Source of the DNA: Magnetococcales bacterium
GTDB lineage: Bacteria > Pseudomonadota > Magnetococcia > Magnetococcales > JADFZT01
Length of the DNA: 40,895 bases
Direction: 5' to 3'
NCBI GenBank assembly: GCA_015232395.1
Contig: JADFZT010000040.1
Coordinates: 1-40,895, forward strand
A program made the translations under genes and the position numbers. The notes beneath the pieces are model-generated. The model had not been told where the DNA came from and did no database searches. It saw only the letters and a list, made by a program, of their open reading frames with translations. This document shows, piece by piece, positions 156 through 26,264 of the stretch (its first letter is position 1; each line of letters begins with the position of its first letter).

Positions 156-884
156 TTATAGAGCCCGAATGGCTTTTAGAAGAGTTGGCAGTTGGGTGGA
201 GGGATTTTTTGGTTGAATGAGGTTGCTGGAAACTCCTACTTGTAAAGCACGTTCTTCAGCCTTTTCCCAACCATCGGAACAGGACTCAAGAAGATCAAAG
301 ATTTGCTTGTTTCCCTTTCCATAATCATCCATCTTGGACTTCATGCGAAGTTCATTATCAATCAATCCATCACAATCGTTATACGGCGGTTCAAAAAAAC
401 CAAAATGCAGTAAAAACCAATACTCTAGACAGGGTGTCGTAACGATGGAACTACATGAAATTTTTTCACCAAACAGGTTACCCTGGAGTCGACTGATCGC
501 TTTTTGAAAAGACTCCTTTCGAGAAAAACTTATGGCCGAATCTCCATCAAAAAGACAATAGACTGCTTCATATGGTGTCCCGCCTTTCTTTTCAGATCTT
601 TGCTCTGCATTAAAAATCGCCACCGCACTATTTACCACATTATTTGGGTCAGTTCCAAAATGGCTTTTAACAACATTTATCTGATGTTGCTTTTTAAAGA
701 ATTTGTCTCGAATCAAATCAGTCAGATAATTTACTGCACTTTCACTATCCTCACAGACGACAAGAATCCGCTTGGGAGTGGCACGTTTTTTCCGATGACT
801 CCTTCCGAGGCGGACTTCTTTACGTTTGGTGTGTTCCCGTGCCGAACTTTTGCCAGTACCCGGAACTGTCTTTCCCCGGCTCAT
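156..884 (-). CDS. rloB: RloB-like (AbiLii-like) defence effector
   Basis: A 242-residue protein of the RloB family, whose members have a TOPRIM-like core and are thought to be nucleic-acid-cleaving effectors of abortive infection. A basic N-terminal tail (residues 16-39) precedes the first strand, ILVVCEDSES, where Glu45 sits at the expected acidic position; the usual EGxxTE motif is changed to EDSES. A second acidic strand carries FDGDSA, and the segment TTPCLEYWFLLHF matches the conserved P-x-[FL]-E-x-W-x-x-x-H-F block of the family. Its ATG overlaps the stop of the upstream ATPase gene in an ATGA, so the two are probably translationally coupled. The coding sequence is AT-rich (43 G+C of 120 bases at 301-420), which suggests horizontal transfer. 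Nuclease activity is inferred, not shown. Confidence 0.8.
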   Translation of the reverse strand: MSRGKTVPGTGKSSAREHTKRKEVRLGRSHRKKRATPKRILVVCEDSESAVNYLTDLIRDKFFKKQHQINVVKSHFGTDPNNVVNSAVAIFNAEQRSEKKGGTPYEAVYCLFDGDSAISFSRKESFQKAISRLQGNLFGEKISCSSIVTTPCLEYWFLLHFGFFEPPYNDCDGLIDNELRMKSKMDDYGKGNKQIFDLLESCSDGWEKAEERALQVGVSSNLIQPKNPSTQLPTLLKAIRAL

Positions 885-2266
885 TCCTCTGGACCTTTCC
901 GTTTTTTCCGGCCCGAGTCAAGCCCACTTTTTCCCACCAGGCGGGGCAAAATCGGCAGAGCACCATATCGACCGTTTAAATAGCGTTTTTGAAAGGCATA
1001 CTCTTCTCTGACATCAAAATCAGAGATGGGATAGAGTTCACTTCCCAGATCATTCCCCTTTTCAATCATCCATATTTGATCCCGCCGAAGCAGGTCACTA
1101 TCGAGTAAAGCAACATCGTGGGTGGTGGCGATCAACTGGGCACCCTGAGGATTGGTCCTTGTATCGTGGACCAAATCGAACAGGGCGCGGACCAGTTTGT
1201 GGTGGAGACTGTTGTCCAGCTCATCGATAAATAACACCAACCCCTGGTTTAGCAACTCCAACCAGTACCCTGCCAACAAAAACATTTTGTGTGTTCCGAC
1301 CGACTCTGCATCCCAGGGCCGTTTTATCAGAGAGGATGTCTCTCCTTCTACGATTTTGGACGATGCGGCCATATAACTCCCGATCGTAGCGCCATCCAAA
1401 ACTTTTTGATTCATCATCACCCTACCGCCCTCAAACCGACCAAGAAGCTCTTTCATAGACGGTGCCCCCCAATTGGTCCTTGGAATAATTTCCACATCAA
1501 TGTCCAAATGAGAAATACTGGCATCGGCAAGCTTTAAAAAGACCAATGCCCACTCACGCCCTCTTTCCTCGCGGCAAGCCTCCCATGTTTTAACGGGCAA
1601 TACGCTCTCTTCTTCACCTGGAGTATCAATTCGAATCCTCAATTTATCCCGAAACCACCCAAACACTGGCTCCATGGAGGGGCTGTTGAGCTGAATGGCG
1701 GTAGAAAGAAACAAAGCATTATTGCGGGTTTTTTCCTGATAAAGCGTGAGATTCCGTTTACCTTCCATCTTTTGTATGGCAGGACAGTTCCAAATTTCCT
1801 CACCACTTTCAACATCCCGGCCACGCTCGATCCAAGTGCGTTTAGCCTCTCGCTCCCCTGCCTTCCCGAAGCTATAGAGCCACTCTTCCTCCACTCGCTC
1901 CTTGGTGGCGGTAAAACCATACTGATAGCGCACCTTATTCGAGATAAACACCACCTCAAAGAGACTCGGCTCCCCTTCATCCTCTGGATCAAACAAAAAA
2001 GGATCCACTGGAATAGGATCCCCGGATTGCCATTTGGCCGACTCCACCACGATCTTTTTCATCACCCCCATCGCCTGGATCCAGTTGCTCTTGCCAGCAG
2101 CGTTGGGGCCGTAGATGACTGATGATTTGAGAAGCTTGGGGGCATCCCGACGCCCGGTTTCAATACAGTGCTCCGGATGCTCTTTGAAGGGAGTCACGGC
2201 CACCATGTCCAAGGTCTGGGGTTCCTGGAAGGAGCGAAAGTGGCCAACGGTCAACTGGATCAGCAT
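881..2266 (-). CDS. rloA: RloA-like (AbiLi-like) AAA/ABC-type ATPase
   Basis: A 461-residue ATPase of the AAA_15/OLD-like group that partners with RloB. The N-terminus (MLIQLTVGHFRSF) is typical of this family; Walker A is GPNAAGKS at residues 53-60, and Walker B (LVLFIDELDNSLHH) is near the C-terminus, followed by an IATTHD switch histidine. Such proteins are thought to act as phage sensors or scaffolds that control the associated TOPRIM effector, as in AbiL, PARIS and retron- or OLD-linked systems. I chose the ATG at 2266 over a GTG at 2296 because the family begins directly with the first beta strand; neither start has a good Shine-Dalgarno. The stop overlaps rloB by 4 bases. Two inverted repeats lie upstream and may be its operators. 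Confidence 0.82.
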   Translation of the reverse strand: MLIQLTVGHFRSFQEPQTLDMVAVTPFKEHPEHCIETGRRDAPKLLKSSVIYGPNAAGKSNWIQAMGVMKKIVVESAKWQSGDPIPVDPFLFDPEDEGEPSLFEVVFISNKVRYQYGFTATKERVEEEWLYSFGKAGEREAKRTWIERGRDVESGEEIWNCPAIQKMEGKRNLTLYQEKTRNNALFLSTAIQLNSPSMEPVFGWFRDKLRIRIDTPGEEESVLPVKTWEACREERGREWALVFLKLADASISHLDIDVEIIPRTNWGAPSMKELLGRFEGGRVMMNQKVLDGATIGSYMAASSKIVEGETSSLIKRPWDAESVGTHKMFLLAGYWLELLNQGLVLFIDELDNSLHHKLVRALFDLVHDTRTNPQGAQLIATTHDVALLDSDLLRRDQIWMIEKGNDLGSELYPISDFDVREEYAFQKRYLNGRYGALPILPRLVGKSGLDSGRKKRKGPEE

Positions 2267-2283
2267 GTCAGATTCCAAACAAG

Positions 2284-2298
2284 AGGTGAATTTCACCT
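2284..2298. promoter_or_regulatory. Palindrome upstream of rloA (AGGTGAA-T-TTCACCT)
   Basis: A perfect 7-base inverted repeat with one central base, 18 bases before the chosen rloA start. It sits just downstream of a possible minus-strand promoter (TTGCAA, 17 bases, CATTAT; alternatively TATAAG as -10). A site this close to the transcription start would suit a repressor. No dedicated regulator gene is seen next to it, so the binding protein is unknown. Confidence 0.35.
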
Positions 2299-2333: not shown

Positions 2334-2497
2334 TTCCTCCTAGGAAAAAATCAATCCACTGAAAGCAATGAAGGAAATTTATTCTCCCCTTTTAATACCC
2401 CTTTTTTTCATAGCCAGCACTACCGCCAAAAATAACCAGAGAAGCTAAAAAAACAATCATGTTATCATGGCAGCTCCAATCAAACAGGAGCCAAGTG

Positions 2498-4591
2498 ATG
2501 GAAGATATCGACCGGCTTAAATCACGCAAACTGCTCTGCCAGGCACTGAATAATCCTGAGGCTAATTTTCGGGAGGGGCAGTGGCAGGCGATCACTCAGC
2601 TGGTGCATCAAAAATCCCGGCTGCTCATGGTGCAACGCACCGGCTGGGGCAAGAGCCTGGTTTACTTCCTTGCTACCAAGCTCCTACGGGATCGCGGGGC
2701 AGGCCCTACCCTGTTGATCTCTCCCCTGCTGGCACTCATGCGCAATCAGCTGGAAGCTGCCAAACGCCTCGGTGTAATGGCGGCTACCCTCAATTCAGCC
2801 AACAAGGATGAGTGGGAGCCCATTCAACAAGCTCTCTTGAACGATTCGTTGGATCTCCTGCTCATCTCCCCGGAGCGACTGGCCAATGAATCGTTCCGGG
2901 AAAATATTCTCATGGAAATCGCCCAAACCATCGGCCTTTTCGTGGTAGATGAGGCCCACTGTATCTCCGACTGGGGCCACGATTTTCGACCGGACTATCG
3001 ACGCATCACCCGTATCCTTCAAGCACTTCCCTCCAACCTCCCGATGCTGGCCACTACCGCCACTGCCAATGACCGGGTCGTGGGAGATGTGACCGAACAG
3101 TTGGGGCCAAACCTGCAACTGATCCGTGGTCCCCTGCGCCGAAACTCTCTCTATCTACAAAACATTGATATGCCAGAAGCGGCTGATCGGTTGGCCCTTC
3201 TGGCTGAAAAAATCCCCAAAATCCCTGGCTGTGGCATCGTCTACACCCTCACCGTCCAGGATGCCCGGCAAGTAGCCGACTGGCTGCAACAAAACCAAAT
3301 TGACGCCGAAGCCTATTGGGGGGGATTGGATACCCCTATCCGATTGGAACTGGAAGAGCGCCTGCTGAAAAATCAGATCAAGGTTTTAGTGGCGACCAGT
3401 GCATTGGGCATGGGATTCGACAAACCGGATCTGGGGTTTGTCATCCACTATCAACGCCCCCAATCAGTCATCCACTACTATCAGCAGGTGGGGCGTGCCG
3501 GACGTGCCATGGAGCAGGCCTTTGGGTTTTTGTTGAGTGGTGACGATGACGATGAAATCATCGACTATTTCATCCATAACGCCTACCCCAAAAAACGACT
3601 CATACAGGAAATTCTCGCAGCCCTGGAAGAGTCTCCAGAGGGACTCAACATACGAGAGCTTGAAAGATGCACCAATTATTCCTTCGGTGAAATCAATAAA
3701 ACCATCAAAATTTTAGCCACCGAATCCCCCGCCCTGATCGCACCACATAAACACAGCTGGTATAGAACAACAGCTCCCTATCAACCAGATATGGCCAAAA
3801 CAAACACGTTGATCTCTCTGCGCATGCAGGAAAAGCAGCGCATGATCGACTATCTTCACCATGACAAATGCCTGGCGGTTTTTCTCGCCGCTGAACTGGA
3901 TGATCCCGATACAACCCCCTGTGGCAAATGTGCTCCCTGTCGCGGCAAACCCCTCATGAGGGAAAATCAATCAGAAGCCAAGGTGATCGAAGCCCAGCAA
4001 TTTTTGGAACTGACGGCCCTTCCCATTCAGCCGATCAAGCAGTGGCCAAAGAGTGCCTTTCCCAAGTATGGCTGGCAGGGAAATATTGCCAAGGAACTAC
4101 ACATGGAGGAAGGGCGAGCATTGTGCCGCTGGGGAGATCCCGGGTGGGGCAGAATGGTCCGGGATGGCAAACAAAAACAGGGACGCTTTGATGATCAGCT
4201 GGTGGTGGCTATGGCCGAGATGATCCGGGAGCGCTGGCAGCCAGAACCCATGCCCACCTGGATCTGCCCCATTCCCTCCACCAACCACCCCCGGCTGGTA
4301 TTGGAGTTTTCCGAAAGGTTAGGCCAAGCTCTGGCGCTGCCAGTGATCGCCTGTGTGGAAAAAACCAAACCCACCCAGCCCCAAAAGGAGATGCAAAACC
4401 GCTATCAGCAAGCCCACAATCTGGATGGTGCATTTCATATTGAGGCGCTGGTGATGCGTGATGAGCCGGTTTTGTTGGTAGATGACATGGTCCATTCCCG
4501 TTGGACCTTGACGGTGGTGGCTGCATTGTTGCGCAATAGAGGTTCGGGGCCGGTTTTTCCGGTCACCCTGGCCCAGGTCATATCCCGTTGA
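2498..4591 (+). CDS. RecQ-like helicase fused to a ComF-type phosphoribosyltransferase
   Basis: A 697-residue fusion. The N-terminal two thirds is a RecQ-family SF2 helicase: Q motif FREGQ at 24-28, Walker A TGWGKS at 48-53, DEAH at 151-154 followed by CISDWGHDFRPDY, TATATA motif III, QVGRAGR motif VI, and a zinc site with CGKCAPC at about 475-481. The C-terminal part is a type I phosphoribosyltransferase whose PRPP loop reads VLLVDDMVHSRWT (Asp near 662), as in ComF and related proteins. The ATG at 2498 has AGGAG seven bases upstream and is preferred over one at 2459. The DprA-like gene follows after 25 bases. RecQ unwinds 3'-tailed DNA; the PRTase substrate is unknown. Helicase + PRTase + DprA matches the competence proteins ComFA, ComFC and DprA, and PRTase + DprA matches the ShosTA defence pair, so a defence role is inferred. 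Confidence 0.85.
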   Translation: MEDIDRLKSRKLLCQALNNPEANFREGQWQAITQLVHQKSRLLMVQRTGWGKSLVYFLATKLLRDRGAGPTLLISPLLALMRNQLEAAKRLGVMAATLNSANKDEWEPIQQALLNDSLDLLLISPERLANESFRENILMEIAQTIGLFVVDEAHCISDWGHDFRPDYRRITRILQALPSNLPMLATTATANDRVVGDVTEQLGPNLQLIRGPLRRNSLYLQNIDMPEAADRLALLAEKIPKIPGCGIVYTLTVQDARQVADWLQQNQIDAEAYWGGLDTPIRLELEERLLKNQIKVLVATSALGMGFDKPDLGFVIHYQRPQSVIHYYQQVGRAGRAMEQAFGFLLSGDDDDEIIDYFIHNAYPKKRLIQEILAALEESPEGLNIRELERCTNYSFGEINKTIKILATESPALIAPHKHSWYRTTAPYQPDMAKTNTLISLRMQEKQRMIDYLHHDKCLAVFLAAELDDPDTTPCGKCAPCRGKPLMRENQSEAKVIEAQQFLELTALPIQPIKQWPKSAFPKYGWQGNIAKELHMEEGRALCRWGDPGWGRMVRDGKQKQGRFDDQLVVAMAEMIRERWQPEPMPTWICPIPSTNHPRLVLEFSERLGQALALPVIACVEKTKPTQPQKEMQNRYQQAHNLDGAFHIEALVMRDEPVLLVDDMVHSRWTLTVVAALLRNRGSGPVFPVTLAQVISR

Positions 4592-4616
4592 ATGGATCCC
4601 TCAGGAGTGGAATTCA

Positions 4617-5933
4617 GTGGCAATCCCATCCCATATATTGAGCCCGGACGCCCAGGTAACCCTGCTGTTGTGTGGGGTGTTCGGTGCCAAAAATGAAGCT
4701 GTCAAACCCCTCCCCCCCAAAGGATTCAACGAAGTAGCCGCCTGGTTGCGGGAGGAAAAACTCCGGCCCGGGGATCTCCTGACAAAAAAAGGGGAAAAGC
4801 GGCTCTCCAAAGCAGCTGGGGATTCAGTAATTCTGGAAACCGCTCTGAAACTCCTCAAGCGGGGGGCGGCCCTGGCGTTGGCTGTGGAAGCGTGGAGCCA
4901 GCAGGGGGTGTGGGTGCTCTGCCGGGGCGACAAAGCCTATCCCAAACGCCTGCGGGAGCGCCTGGCTGCTGCGGCCCCTCCCCTCCTCTATGGCGCTGGT
5001 AATCCTGAAAATCTCTCCAAAGGGGGCATCTCCGTGGTGGGCTCCAGGGCAGCCTCTGCCCAATCCTTGGCCTTCACCCGACAACTCGCCATGCGGGCTG
5101 CCGGAGAACGTGTTCAGATTATTTCCGGGGGGGCCAAGGGGGTGGACCAGGAAGCGATGCTCACCGCGCTCAACCAGGGGGGGAGCTGCGTGGGGATTCT
5201 CGCCGACAGCCTCACCCGGGAAGCCCTCTCCAAAAAATATCGCACAGGCCTTCAGGAAGGTCGCCTCACCCTCATCTCCCCAGTCAATCCCGAAGCGGGT
5301 TTCAATACCGGGGTGGCCATGGGGCGCAATCGTTTTATCTATTGCCTGGGGGATGCCGGGGTGGTGATCCATGCCACCCCCAAAAAGGGGGGTACCTGGC
5401 AAGGAGCCCAGGACAACCTGAAAAAAAGCTGGGTGCCCCTGTTGGTGTGGGACGGCTATGCCCTTCCCGATGGCAACCGGGCGTTGATCAAGCAAGGGGG
5501 AACGCCCCTGGGTGAAAAAATATTTGATCCCGATTTTAAGCTCCATCAGCTCTATAAACCCAACGATGATAAGGAAGAATCCAGCCAACCAGCCGCTGAC
5601 GCCATCCCTGAACCTGCCACCCAAAACAAAACAATCGAATCAAACCCCCAAGCCGCCCCTCCCGATGCACCGCCCCCCACTCAGGAGAGCACCAAAACAT
5701 CCCCCCCGGATTTTTGGCATGATCACGTCTGGCCCACCCTGGAGCCTCTACTCACCACGCCACTCACCAGCGCTGAAGTGGCTGGAAATCTGGATGTGGC
5801 CATCGGTCAGGTGAACAAATGGCTCAAGCGGGGAGTGGATGAAGGCAAACTCCACAAGATCAACAGCCCCGTTCGCTACCACCTGGCCTCCCTGGCCGGG
5901 AAGCAGGGGACATTGGGTTTTGATGAGCCATAG
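4617..5933 (+). CDS. DprA/Smf-like DNA-processing protein (ShosA-like)
   Basis: A 438-residue protein with a DprA Rossmann-like core: VVGSRAAS near 138, IISGGAKGVDQEAM near 168-181, and GRNRFIYCLGDAGVV with HATPKKGGTWQGA near 236-265. A proline/glutamine-rich linker (about 322-362) leads to a C-terminal winged helix (about 375-430). Canonical DprA binds ssDNA and loads RecA; this one is diverged (GAKGVD where chromosomal DprA has SGLAxGID; GRNRFI retained). The start is a GTG at 4617 with AGGAG nine bases upstream. It follows the RecQ-PRTase gene by 25 bases, so they form an operon. In ShosTA the DprA-like partner counteracts a toxic PRTase; the same relation is possible here but not shown. 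It is unlikely to be the housekeeping dprA because of context and divergence. Confidence 0.85.
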   Translation: MAIPSHILSPDAQVTLLLCGVFGAKNEAVKPLPPKGFNEVAAWLREEKLRPGDLLTKKGEKRLSKAAGDSVILETALKLLKRGAALALAVEAWSQQGVWVLCRGDKAYPKRLRERLAAAAPPLLYGAGNPENLSKGGISVVGSRAASAQSLAFTRQLAMRAAGERVQIISGGAKGVDQEAMLTALNQGGSCVGILADSLTREALSKKYRTGLQEGRLTLISPVNPEAGFNTGVAMGRNRFIYCLGDAGVVIHATPKKGGTWQGAQDNLKKSWVPLLVWDGYALPDGNRALIKQGGTPLGEKIFDPDFKLHQLYKPNDDKEESSQPAADAIPEPATQNKTIESNPQAAPPDAPPPTQESTKTSPPDFWHDHVWPTLEPLLTTPLTSAEVAGNLDVAIGQVNKWLKRGVDEGKLHKINSPVRYHLASLAGKQGTLGFDEP

Positions 5934-10861: not shown

Positions 10862-11206
10862 TCATGGAACATCCTCTTTTGCTACCTGGATATTTCTGAT
10901 CGCCTTCATCAACCCAGGCACACGTTTTTCAACAACCTGCCAAATGATCTCCAAATCGATACCAAGGTAATCGTGAGCGAGAACATTCCGGAATCCGGAT
11001 AAAGTTCGCCAGTCGACTAAAGGGTTGGCCTGCTTAAGATCCGAGGAGAGTTTCTGACTCGATTCTGCCATGATCTGGAGATTTCGAAGCACTGCATCCT
11101 GAATGAGGCTTGATCGGAAAAAATCTGCTCTGCCCCCAGCCACATATTCCGAAATCTTCTGAAGGCAGATCACCATATGCTCCAGATAAACGCTATCCTT
11201 ATTCAT
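10862..11206 (-). CDS. hepT: HepT-like HEPN ribonuclease toxin
   Basis: A 114-residue all-alpha HEPN (DUF86) protein. The catalytic motif R-x4-H-x-Y is visible as RNVLAHDY, at the place used by HepT toxins for metal-independent RNA cleavage. It overlaps the MntA gene upstream by 4 bases (ATGA), the normal arrangement of HEPN/MNT toxin-antitoxin pairs, in which the nucleotidyltransferase AMPylates the tyrosine of HepT. Such pairs act in stress or phage response and in plasmid or island maintenance. All key residues are present, so it is probably functional. Confidence 0.88.
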   Translation of the reverse strand: MNKDSVYLEHMVICLQKISEYVAGGRADFFRSSLIQDAVLRNLQIMAESSQKLSSDLKQANPLVDWRTLSGFRNVLAHDYLGIDLEIIWQVVEKRVPGLMKAIRNIQVAKEDVP

Positions 11207-23577: not shown

Positions 23578-24063
23578 ATGATTTCCTGGCTGGACAGACA
23601 GATCAAAACCCAAAAACAAGCCCCAAGCGTGATCACTTGGTTGGACAAACATATCAATGCCCGCAAGCAAGCCCCAAGTGGCCTGGCTCTGCACATTCAG
23701 GAGCCCAACTCCGAGGGTTACGACTTTTACTACCGTACTCCGGACAGCTCAGAATATTTTTTGGGCCGCTCCACAGCAGAATGCAGTTTTCAGCAGCTTC
23801 AGATTCAACTTCACGATCCCCACGTCTCCCGCCTCCACTGCCGATTTTTCCGGCTGCCCCACGGACTCTGGATGGTTGAGGATCTCAACAGCAGCAACGG
23901 TACCTTTCTGGGCCGCCAGGAGAAAGGGTTCATCCCTGCAGGCCGGGTGCGTCGCCCCATGCCCATCCGTCCAGGCGTAACGATTTTCGTGGGCAAAACC
24001 ATCCTCACCGTCCGCTCCACAGAAGCCGTCCGTACCCCATTCTGGAAATTCCGCGCTGCGTGA
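23578..24063 (+). CDS. FHA-domain protein with a duplicated N-terminal segment
   Basis: A 161-residue protein. Residues 2-17 (ISWLDRQIKTQKQAPS) and 19-34 (ITWLDKHINARKQAPS) are a tandem repeat with a period of 17 residues. Then comes an FHA domain (about 45-150) with all phosphothreonine-binding hallmarks: LGRS, DPHVSRLHCRFF and LNSSNGTFLG. FHA domains bind phosphothreonine peptides and link to Ser/Thr kinases, type VI secretion or other signalling. No kinase is visible nearby. The ATG at 23578 has GGAG ten bases upstream. It is divergent from the acyl-AMP ligase and 110 bases upstream of the PARIS-like pair, so it may be part of that cassette or independent. Confidence 0.85.
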   Translation: MISWLDRQIKTQKQAPSVITWLDKHINARKQAPSGLALHIQEPNSEGYDFYYRTPDSSEYFLGRSTAECSFQQLQIQLHDPHVSRLHCRFFRLPHGLWMVEDLNSSNGTFLGRQEKGFIPAGRVRRPMPIRPGVTIFVGKTILTVRSTEAVRTPFWKFRAA

Positions 24064-24173
24064 TAACAGGGTATCTTGCCCCATTTTCCCCAGCGTCATA
24101 ACATGGGGGTTGTTTCATCCGGAAGCAATCCCCTTCCCCATCCGGACCCAATACCCCGGAAAGGGTCAATCCG

Positions 24174-25334
24174 ATGTCCGACGAAATCATCGTCCACGAA
24201 TTCCGCCCCCTCTTCCTCACTGTGGAAAACATCGGCCCCTTCCAGGGGAAACCCTACACGGTAGATTTCACCACATCGGACAACGAACCCTGCAATTTTT
24301 TTCTCCTCATTTCCGAAAATGGCCGTGGCAAGACCACCCTGCTTGAAACGATGGTAGATTTGGTATCGCTGCTTTCCACTTCTAATGGTCTACCCCTGAA
24401 AATGCTCAGAGAAGAACTCAAAAAGGATACTGGCCGCGCCCAAATTGATTTCTTTTTTAAATACAACTTTTCCGGATCATCAACAAAGGCTATGATTTTC
24501 AGCATTGAGGCCGGAAAACGGAAACACAATCCTCTCAAAGACTGGGCTGAGGACGAGGTTCAAATTTTTTCTGCCAGAAACCAGGAAACACATATATGGC
24601 TCAACAGATCCACAAAACAAGAAAAATGGCATAGAAGGAATAAAGTAAATATAGGCCCTCAATCCGGACGACTAGAAATGTTTGCCGATTTTGCCCAGAA
24701 GGCACGGGGACAATCACCTGGTCAAACTGAAAACAATCCACCAACCATCCTCTTTTTTCCAGATAATCGCGGTATCCCACCTGCTGATTCTTTTGGTAAC
24801 CGCTCTATCAGCCAACCTTCAAATTGGAGATATCAACTCGTTCATCAGTTTGGTCTTGAACGAGGTTGGAACCGCTCCCTGGACAACATGCTGGTCTGGC
24901 TCTCCTGGCTGGATGATGGGCGCCTTGAAAAAGCCAAGCAGATGGTCAACGATTGGGCCTTCAAGGATACCAATAAAGTTCTGGAAGGGATCCGCAAGGA
25001 ACCTCCAGAAGCGGTGGTCAACAATAACGGCGTTAAACACCGGTTGGATCTCTTGAGTGGTGGAGAGAGAAACCTGGTGCAGCTCTGTTTGAGGCTGGGC
25101 GCTCACATGACCCAAAACACCATCGTTTTGATTGATGAGCTGGATCTACACCTGCATATCAAATGGCAACACCGACTACTCAACCGGTTGAAAGGAATGG
25201 TGAAGGAAAATCCCGGTCTCACGGTGATCGCCACAACCCACTCAAAAGAGATCATCGAAGCCTTTGCCAGCGACCTGAAAGAAGAGGGGCTGCGCAAGGG
25301 GGGGCAGATCATCGATCTGGACACAGACCGGTAA
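24174..25334 (+). CDS. PARIS AriA-like ABC/AAA_15 ATPase
   Basis: A 386-residue ATPase. Walker A is S-E-N-G-R-G-K-T-T at 47-55 (the usual first Gly is Ser), the ABC signature LLSGGERN is near 294, Walker B VLIDELDLHLH near 320, and the switch histidine in IATTHSKEI near 356. Such ATPases pair with a DUF4435 TOPRIM protein in PARIS, where AriA senses a phage trigger such as an anti-restriction protein and releases AriB. The ATG has GGAAAGGG eight bases upstream, and the DUF4435 gene follows after nine bases. The middle part is AT-rich (about 35-43% G+C in single lines at 24421-24660) compared with neighbours, a sign of transfer. It could also be another OLD/ATPase pair type. Confidence 0.82.
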   Translation: MSDEIIVHEFRPLFLTVENIGPFQGKPYTVDFTTSDNEPCNFFLLISENGRGKTTLLETMVDLVSLLSTSNGLPLKMLREELKKDTGRAQIDFFFKYNFSGSSTKAMIFSIEAGKRKHNPLKDWAEDEVQIFSARNQETHIWLNRSTKQEKWHRRNKVNIGPQSGRLEMFADFAQKARGQSPGQTENNPPTILFFPDNRGIPPADSFGNRSISQPSNWRYQLVHQFGLERGWNRSLDNMLVWLSWLDDGRLEKAKQMVNDWAFKDTNKVLEGIRKEPPEAVVNNNGVKHRLDLLSGGERNLVQLCLRLGAHMTQNTIVLIDELDLHLHIKWQHRLLNRLKGMVKENPGLTVIATTHSKEIIEAFASDLKEEGLRKGGQIIDLDTDR

Positions 25335-25343
25335 TTCCTCATT

Positions 25344-26264
25344 ATGGCCACTTTCAAAAGCCTGCCCGATGCTCACACCATTGCCAGCCGCTATGATGGC
25401 CGTCTACCGGTCTATCTGGAATCTAAAGAGGATGCTCAGGTTTTTGCAGAACGCTGGTTCAATGGCTCCCGGGATACGCTGAGGTTTATCGCAGCGGATC
25501 AAGTTGGTACCGGCGGCTGCCAAGGGGTCATTCAGCAAGTCGCCCAGGATCGGGATGCTGGATTGGCTGCCTACGGTATCGTTGATCGGGATGTACTTTT
25601 GGGTATTTCCTGCCCGGACCTCTTTTTTTTCCCGGAAGAAAACACCCCGCACATTCCCTGGCCCCTCCCCCCCGAGATCATCGTTCTCGACTGCTGGGAG
25701 ATGGAAAACTATCTGCTCGACTCCGAGGCTGTGGAAACCTTTCAAGCTGATGAGCAAGGCCGGAGCAAATGGGATAGTGGGGTCGTCCTGGAAACACTCT
25801 CTGATTTCGCTCAAAACCTATTGGGGCTGATGGCGGCCAATCTGGTACTTATGACCTATCGAAAGGAGAGCCTCTCCCCTCTTTTTGAAGCTGCTGTCCT
25901 CGAACCATCCCGAGAAAAACTCACCAGCCACCTTTCAACAAAAATTTCCATCCCCGACATCAACACCGAGGGACTATTCGATCAATATGCAGAATTGATT
26001 GGGGAAACCGTCCCTACAACCTCAGCTGATTTCCACAATAATTGGGAACAGCTGCGCTGCCGGGTGGATGGAAAAATGTTCCTGACCCGATTTTTCCATA
26101 AGCCTGGCCATAAAAACAATCTACCCCGTTTCCACTTGGCGACCCGCATCAAGGAGCAAAACCGGGTAAGCCCTGAACTTACTCGTCATATCGAACGGTT
26201 GGTCGATATTGCCAATGGCCGTTCTCCCGCTTCACCCCAAATCAGCCCTCATCAATCCCCATAA
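25344..26264 (+). CDS. DUF4435 / TOPRIM-like effector (PARIS AriB-like)
   Basis: A 306-residue protein with the DUF4435 signature: LPVYLESKEDAQVF with Glu26 in the TOPRIM glutamate position, GIVDRDVLLG with Asp81 and Asp83, and LDCWEMENYLLD (about 113-124) that is characteristic of the family. In PARIS, AriB is a TOPRIM nuclease freed from AriA that cleaves host tRNA and aborts infection. It follows the ATPase gene by nine bases. Its last 13 bases overlap the 3' end of the convergent pabBC gene, so the cassette sits directly against a core gene. The tRNA-cutting activity is inferred from the family and not from sequence. Confidence 0.8.
   Translation: MATFKSLPDAHTIASRYDGRLPVYLESKEDAQVFAERWFNGSRDTLRFIAADQVGTGGCQGVIQQVAQDRDAGLAAYGIVDRDVLLGISCPDLFFFPEENTPHIPWPLPPEIIVLDCWEMENYLLDSEAVETFQADEQGRSKWDSGVVLETLSDFAQNLLGLMAANLVLMTYRKESLSPLFEAAVLEPSREKLTSHLSTKISIPDINTEGLFDQYAELIGETVPTTSADFHNNWEQLRCRVDGKMFLTRFFHKPGHKNNLPRFHLATRIKEQNRVSPELTRHIERLVDIANGRSPASPQISPHQSP

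Follow-up and report, generated by a model that had tools for sequence, protein, structure and literature searches.

A probable PsyrTA (RqlHI) operon in a Magnetococcales bacterium has an unusual residue in the PRPP loop

Identification of the operon

Two adjacent genes in a Magnetococcales genome most probably constitute a PsyrTA system, also named RqlHI; from the sequence comparisons below, we put the probability of this assignment at about 0.9. The pair is a copy of an already described system and does not represent a new kind of system, since PsyrTA has already been named, characterized experimentally, and included in standard defense-annotation libraries. The window analyzed here is the whole 40,895-nucleotide stretch of DNA (assembly GCA_015232395.1, contig JADFZT010000040.1, positions 1 to 40,895, forward strand). 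The first-pass annotation had described a RecQ helicase fused to a phosphoribosyltransferase (PRTase) and followed by a DprA-like gene; both open reading frames were found in that place, and their domains were confirmed. This reading was correct, and most of the checks proposed with it have already been done in a homolog. The genes and the likely translation signal between them are as follows.

2459 to 4591, plus strand: psyrT (rqlH), 710 amino acids, with a RecQ-type helicase (residues ~35 to 375) and a C-terminal PRTase (residues ~505 to 710)
4603 to 4607, plus strand: AGGAG, the likely ribosome-binding site of psyrA, 9 nucleotides upstream of the GTG
4617 to 5933, plus strand: psyrA (rqlI), 438 amino acids, with a GTG start; a DprA/Smf Rossmann protein with a C-terminal winged-helix-like region and putative antitoxin

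The psyrT frame is open from the ATG at 2459, contains a second in-frame ATG at 2498 (the start chosen in the first-pass annotation), and stops at 4591, which leaves 25 nucleotides before the psyrA start. The PADLOC model for PsyrT matched the window protein with 944 bits (E = 1e-284; 679 of 689 model positions covered), and the model for PsyrA matched its partner with 411 bits (E = 1.4e-123); these E values rule out chance. PsyrA also contained a DNA_processg_A/DprA domain (7e-35). Compared with the Escherichia coli proteins, both taken from an ST131 chromosome, PsyrT was 51% identical to RqlH over 690 amino acids, and PsyrA was 35% identical to RqlI over 410 amino acids. ST131 RqlH has Lys49, Asp148, and a DIVD motif from residue 663, which are the sites of the published mutants, and this agreement validated the numbering used below. 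For the window copy itself, the direct observations are homology, domain architecture, motif conservation, and gene linkage.

Helicase region of PsyrT

Residues 39 to 350 of PsyrT matched the DEAD and Helicase_C domain profiles as well as RecQ family models, and the nearest solved structures were those of RecQ helicases. Conservation was scored across 84 homologs for three motifs.

2642 to 2656, plus strand: Walker A motif GWGKS, PsyrT residues 62 to 66; Lys65 corresponds to RqlH K49; present in 84 of 84 homologs
2948 to 2959, plus strand: DEAH box, PsyrT residues 164 to 167; Asp164 corresponds to RqlH D148; present in 84 of 84 homologs
3920 to 3940, plus strand: cysteine cluster CGKCAPC, PsyrT residues 488 to 494, past the helicase core; present in ~60 of 84 homologs

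Because only about 60 homologs have it, the cysteine cluster is dispensable for the PsyrT family.

PRTase domain and PRPP loop

3971 to 4588, plus strand: PRTase domain, PsyrT residues 505 to 710 (~205 amino acids), recognized by PF00156 in homologs, by a profile against the PDB, and by its AlphaFold2 fold
4469 to 4507, plus strand: PRPP loop VLLVDDMVHSRWT, PsyrT residues 671 to 683, containing D676 (RqlH D663) and H679

The PRTase was not seen in a Pfam search of the single full-length PsyrT sequence, and the domain alone, used as a single-sequence query, had no significant match in the PDB. PF00156 was matched in 32 of 39 homologous C-terminal domains, and a profile of the domain matched PRPP synthetases in the PDB, with HGPRT and PurF matched more weakly. 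As modeled by AlphaFold2 (pLDDT, 94.9; pTM, 0.90), the domain resembles type I PRTases, and Helicobacter pylori ComF had the highest query-normalized TM-score among the matches listed (0.54). On this family profile and predicted fold, the identification of the C-terminal domain as a PRTase holds. The domain had been called ComF type, which is only loosely right: it scored 20.3 bits against the GntX/ComF family model, for which the cutoff is 304, so that the ComF likeness is one of fold only, and the loop motif is more like that of Gpt/HPRT enzymes than a ComF loop.

The loop pattern of the PsyrT family is VDD-h-V-D-S-(R/G)-W-T. D676 is the second residue of the DD pair, and 83 of the 84 homologs have Asp there. 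Residue 679 (codon CAT, positions 4493 to 4495) is a His and corresponds to RqlH D666, the fourth residue of DIVD. At this position, 77 of the 84 homologs have Asp, including all 15 that are closest to the window, and the window copy is the sole one with His; six further homologs have N, G, or E, among them three with a PsyrA partner present (N in locus L088; G in loci L064 and L086). Since several partnered members also differ at this position, residue 679 does not define the family, and His679 alone is no proof of decay.

In Gpt/HPRT-type enzymes, the Asp that occupies this place in the loop is catalytic, and His679 might weaken the window PRTase. A tentative and rather doubtful reading of the sequence is that this PsyrT is a natural active-site variant, with the PRTase chemistry perhaps altered or lost and the helicase and antitoxin retained. 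If so, the His679 copy could serve as a natural experiment to distinguish a toxin that acts via base or nucleotide transfer from one that acts via PRPP binding only.

Linkage and distribution

Linkage was evaluated in the best 80 genome loci, 79 of which had enough downstream sequence. A PsyrA homolog adjoined PsyrT downstream on the same strand in 76 of these 79, a figure that describes the nearest relatives and does not extend to distant RqlH homologs. The linked loci span Cyanobacteria, Chloroflexi, Proteobacteria, Bacteroidota, Verrucomicrobia, and others, so that the cross-genome search suggested in the first-pass annotation did recover the fusion next to a DprA-like gene in diverse bacteria. 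At five loci (L015, L034, L060, L090, and L092), a PsyrT-like gene was present and no PsyrA homolog was found within the available flanks, and these are possible solo forms. A survey published in 2015 recorded RqlH without RqlI in 55% of strains, mostly Gram positive (PMC4670107).

The genome of the window was searched together with 60 relatives; of these 61 genomes, about 9 had a PsyrT-level match, and nearly all had RecQ-type helicases. The window's genome has a separate RecQ (G000:C3; 316 bits) and a separate DprA (G000:C8; 249 bits). On an E. coli conjugative plasmid (L103, 6043 to 9560), psyrTA is flanked by hsdS and hsdR within a type I restriction-modification operon, and a Nostoc plasmid also has the pair; among 50,697 phage records, there was no full-length PsyrT. 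The patchy spread, the plasmid copies, and the separate RecQ and DprA are together typical of an accessory conflict module.

On the chromosome of E. coli AVS0935 (NZ_CP124405.1, 3043220 to 3046606), an IS3-family element splits psyrT and a separate ComF-annotated fragment remains, an arrangement that resembles the published case of Shigella sonnei 53G.

Neighboring genes

156 to 884, minus strand: RloB/AbiLii, by domain and defense-model match
881 to 2296, minus strand: AAA_21 ATPase/AbiLi (RloA-like), by domain and defense-model match

The RloAB neighbors noted in the first-pass annotation were thus found, and they correspond to AbiLii and AbiLi. This RloAB-like pair (156 to 2296), divergent from psyrTA, is a separate, second candidate defense system. 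Beside the other PsyrTA loci, a close RloA homolog occurred at one only (a partial open reading frame in L093) and RloB at none; this lack of recurrence speaks against RloAB as a functional partner of PsyrTA. Elsewhere in the window, the region from 23578 to 26264 (plus strand) encodes an FHA-domain protein, an AAA_21 ATPase, and then a DUF4435 protein that matches AriB weakly (35 bits); a PARIS-like pair may be encoded here. A HepT-like ribonuclease toxin homolog lies at 10862 to 11206 (minus strand).

Published function and proposed mechanism

In E. coli, RqlH without RqlI activates the SOS response and causes filamentation and growth loss, and this toxicity is mostly removed by deletion of the PRTase domain or by D663A; RqlI binds RqlH and neutralizes the toxicity (PMC4670107). 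The laboratory strain E. coli K-12 MG1655 has no copy of the system (PMC4670107). The PRTase domain by itself is nontoxic, and the helicase mutations K49A and D148A make some effects worse (PMC4670107), which together imply that the helicase also restrains the PRTase. Toxicity, the need for the PRPP-loop Asp, neutralization, interaction, and SOS induction were thus shown in E. coli homologs and would extend to the window proteins by analogy. The proposed mutations of the PRPP-loop Asp and the Walker A Lys were accordingly already in print for RqlH (D663A and K49A). The proposal of a PRTase toxin kept in check by a DprA-like protein agrees with RqlHI as far as the DprA-like partner is concerned and falls short in leaving out the helicase, without which the PRTase is nontoxic.

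PsyrTA is cataloged as an anti-phage system acting via abortive infection (PMC10855318, citing Millman 2022 and Sberro 2013). Protection by a native E. coli PsyrTA was undetectable against the phages tried (PMC12409345), so that defense is not universal. The first-pass suggestion of a defense system built from the logic of competence stands as regards anti-phage cataloging, and the competence comparison had already been drawn (PMC4670107 and PMC5512222); what does not stand is its novelty, the pair being PsyrTA/RqlHI.

In the proposed mechanism, the operon would be a toxin-antitoxin and abortive-infection system, the latter role being inferred for the window copy. PsyrT, a RecQ-type helicase, bears a PRTase that would be genotoxic or growth arresting once unrestrained. 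PsyrA, with its DprA fold, would bind PsyrT and restrain the PRTase jointly with the ATP-driven helicase domain, and the complex would most likely reside on abnormal or replicating DNA. Phage infection might disturb the complex, for example, if the DprA-like subunit were lost, titrated, or captured by single-stranded DNA, and the freed PRTase could then use PRPP in a reaction on DNA or nucleotides that halts both growth and the phage. That the helicase and DprA-like subunits sense some disturbance of the DNA as the trigger, and that DNA bases or nucleotides are the target, are conjectures to which we give somewhat less than even odds. Recognition of phage or foreign DNA ends by the helicase, as proposed in the first-pass annotation, would be a further, speculative step.

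Alternative explanations

Russell and Mulvey proposed that the pair serves DNA maintenance or repair on host DNA, with PsyrT altering a base and PsyrA resolving it (Fig. 10 of PMC4670107), in which case toxicity would be a by-product of imbalance and not defense. The description of Mycobacterium smegmatis RqlH as a RecQ-family helicase and the frequency of RqlH without RqlI in Gram-positive bacteria (PMC4670107) are in keeping with this model, as are the five solo PsyrT loci. However, the patchy spread, plasmid carriage, and restriction-modification or Abi surroundings fit an accessory conflict module better, and deletion of rqlH and rqlI together caused no observed fitness loss (PMC4670107); we regard the repair model as possible and on the whole unlikely. 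A further alternative is that the Asp-to-His change at 679 has inactivated the PRTase and that the operon is a detoxified, decaying relic. The uniqueness of this His among 84 homologs and the catalytic role of the equivalent Asp in Gpt/HPRT-type enzymes speak for such a relic, but both frames are intact and of full length, the remaining motif residues, including D675 and D676, are conserved, and the partnered homologs with N or G at this position also lack the Asp. Decay is less probable still than the repair model.

The three domain types of the pair are identical to those of natural transformation, the analogy has been made in print (PMC4670107 and PMC5512222), and H. pylori ComF had the best query-normalized TM-score listed for the PRTase, all of which would suit a module for DNA processing resembling ComFA/ComFC/DprA. 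Against a transformation module, the helicase is RecQ-like and not ComFA, the genome has its own DprA elsewhere, the distribution is accessory, and transformation was undetectable in the authors' E. coli isolates (PMC4670107); this explanation is very improbable. Least credible of all is an ordinary housekeeping RecQ beside a DprA gene placed there by chance. The helicase core is indeed RecQ-like, but PsyrT scored 286.5 bits versus an equivalog cutoff of 640.2 for RecQ and has a C-terminal PRTase, the genome has its own RecQ, and the DprA-like neighbor is kept at 76 of 79 loci, so that linkage and domain data refute it.

Comparison with known systems

DpdF of the Dpd system has a RecQ-like helicase core, and some short DpdF models also match the C-terminal region of PsyrT; PsyrT was rejected as a DpdF with a score of 159.2 bits versus a cutoff of 550 for the NCBIfam model, and no sign of further Dpd genes was found among the open reading frames examined. 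ComFA, ComFC, and DprA of natural competence share the helicase, PRTase, and DprA domain types with the pair but are encoded by separate genes, use another helicase family, and have a core competence function.

ShosTA is similar in combining a PRTase effector with a partner of DprA fold, and shosTA, syrTA, and rqlHI have been grouped by their DprA-homolog antitoxins (PMC9122126). The ShosTA toxin, as described, has a PRTase but lacks a RecQ helicase (PMC9122126), whereas the window PRTase is fused to one; moreover, the DprA-like protein scored 82 bits to ShosA versus 411 to PsyrA.

Both window proteins matched the profiles of Pseudomonas syringae PsyrTA (PADLOC PDLC03928/PDLC03927) over their full length, and no defining difference from that pair (Sberro 2013, via PMC8790059 and PMC10855318) was found. 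In extraintestinal E. coli, RqlH-RqlI (PMC4670107) has the same domain order in both proteins and the same gene order, and it shares the Walker A, DEAH, and PRPP-loop residues except Asp666, which is replaced by His679 in the window PsyrT; the E. coli genes overlap, with rqlI starting within rqlH, whereas the window genes are 25 nucleotides apart. PsyrTA/RqlHI is widespread. The window copy, which is well conserved and comes from an unrelated bacterium, widens the sequence diversity and shows one active-site residue that is unusual, but it leaves the picture of the system unchanged.
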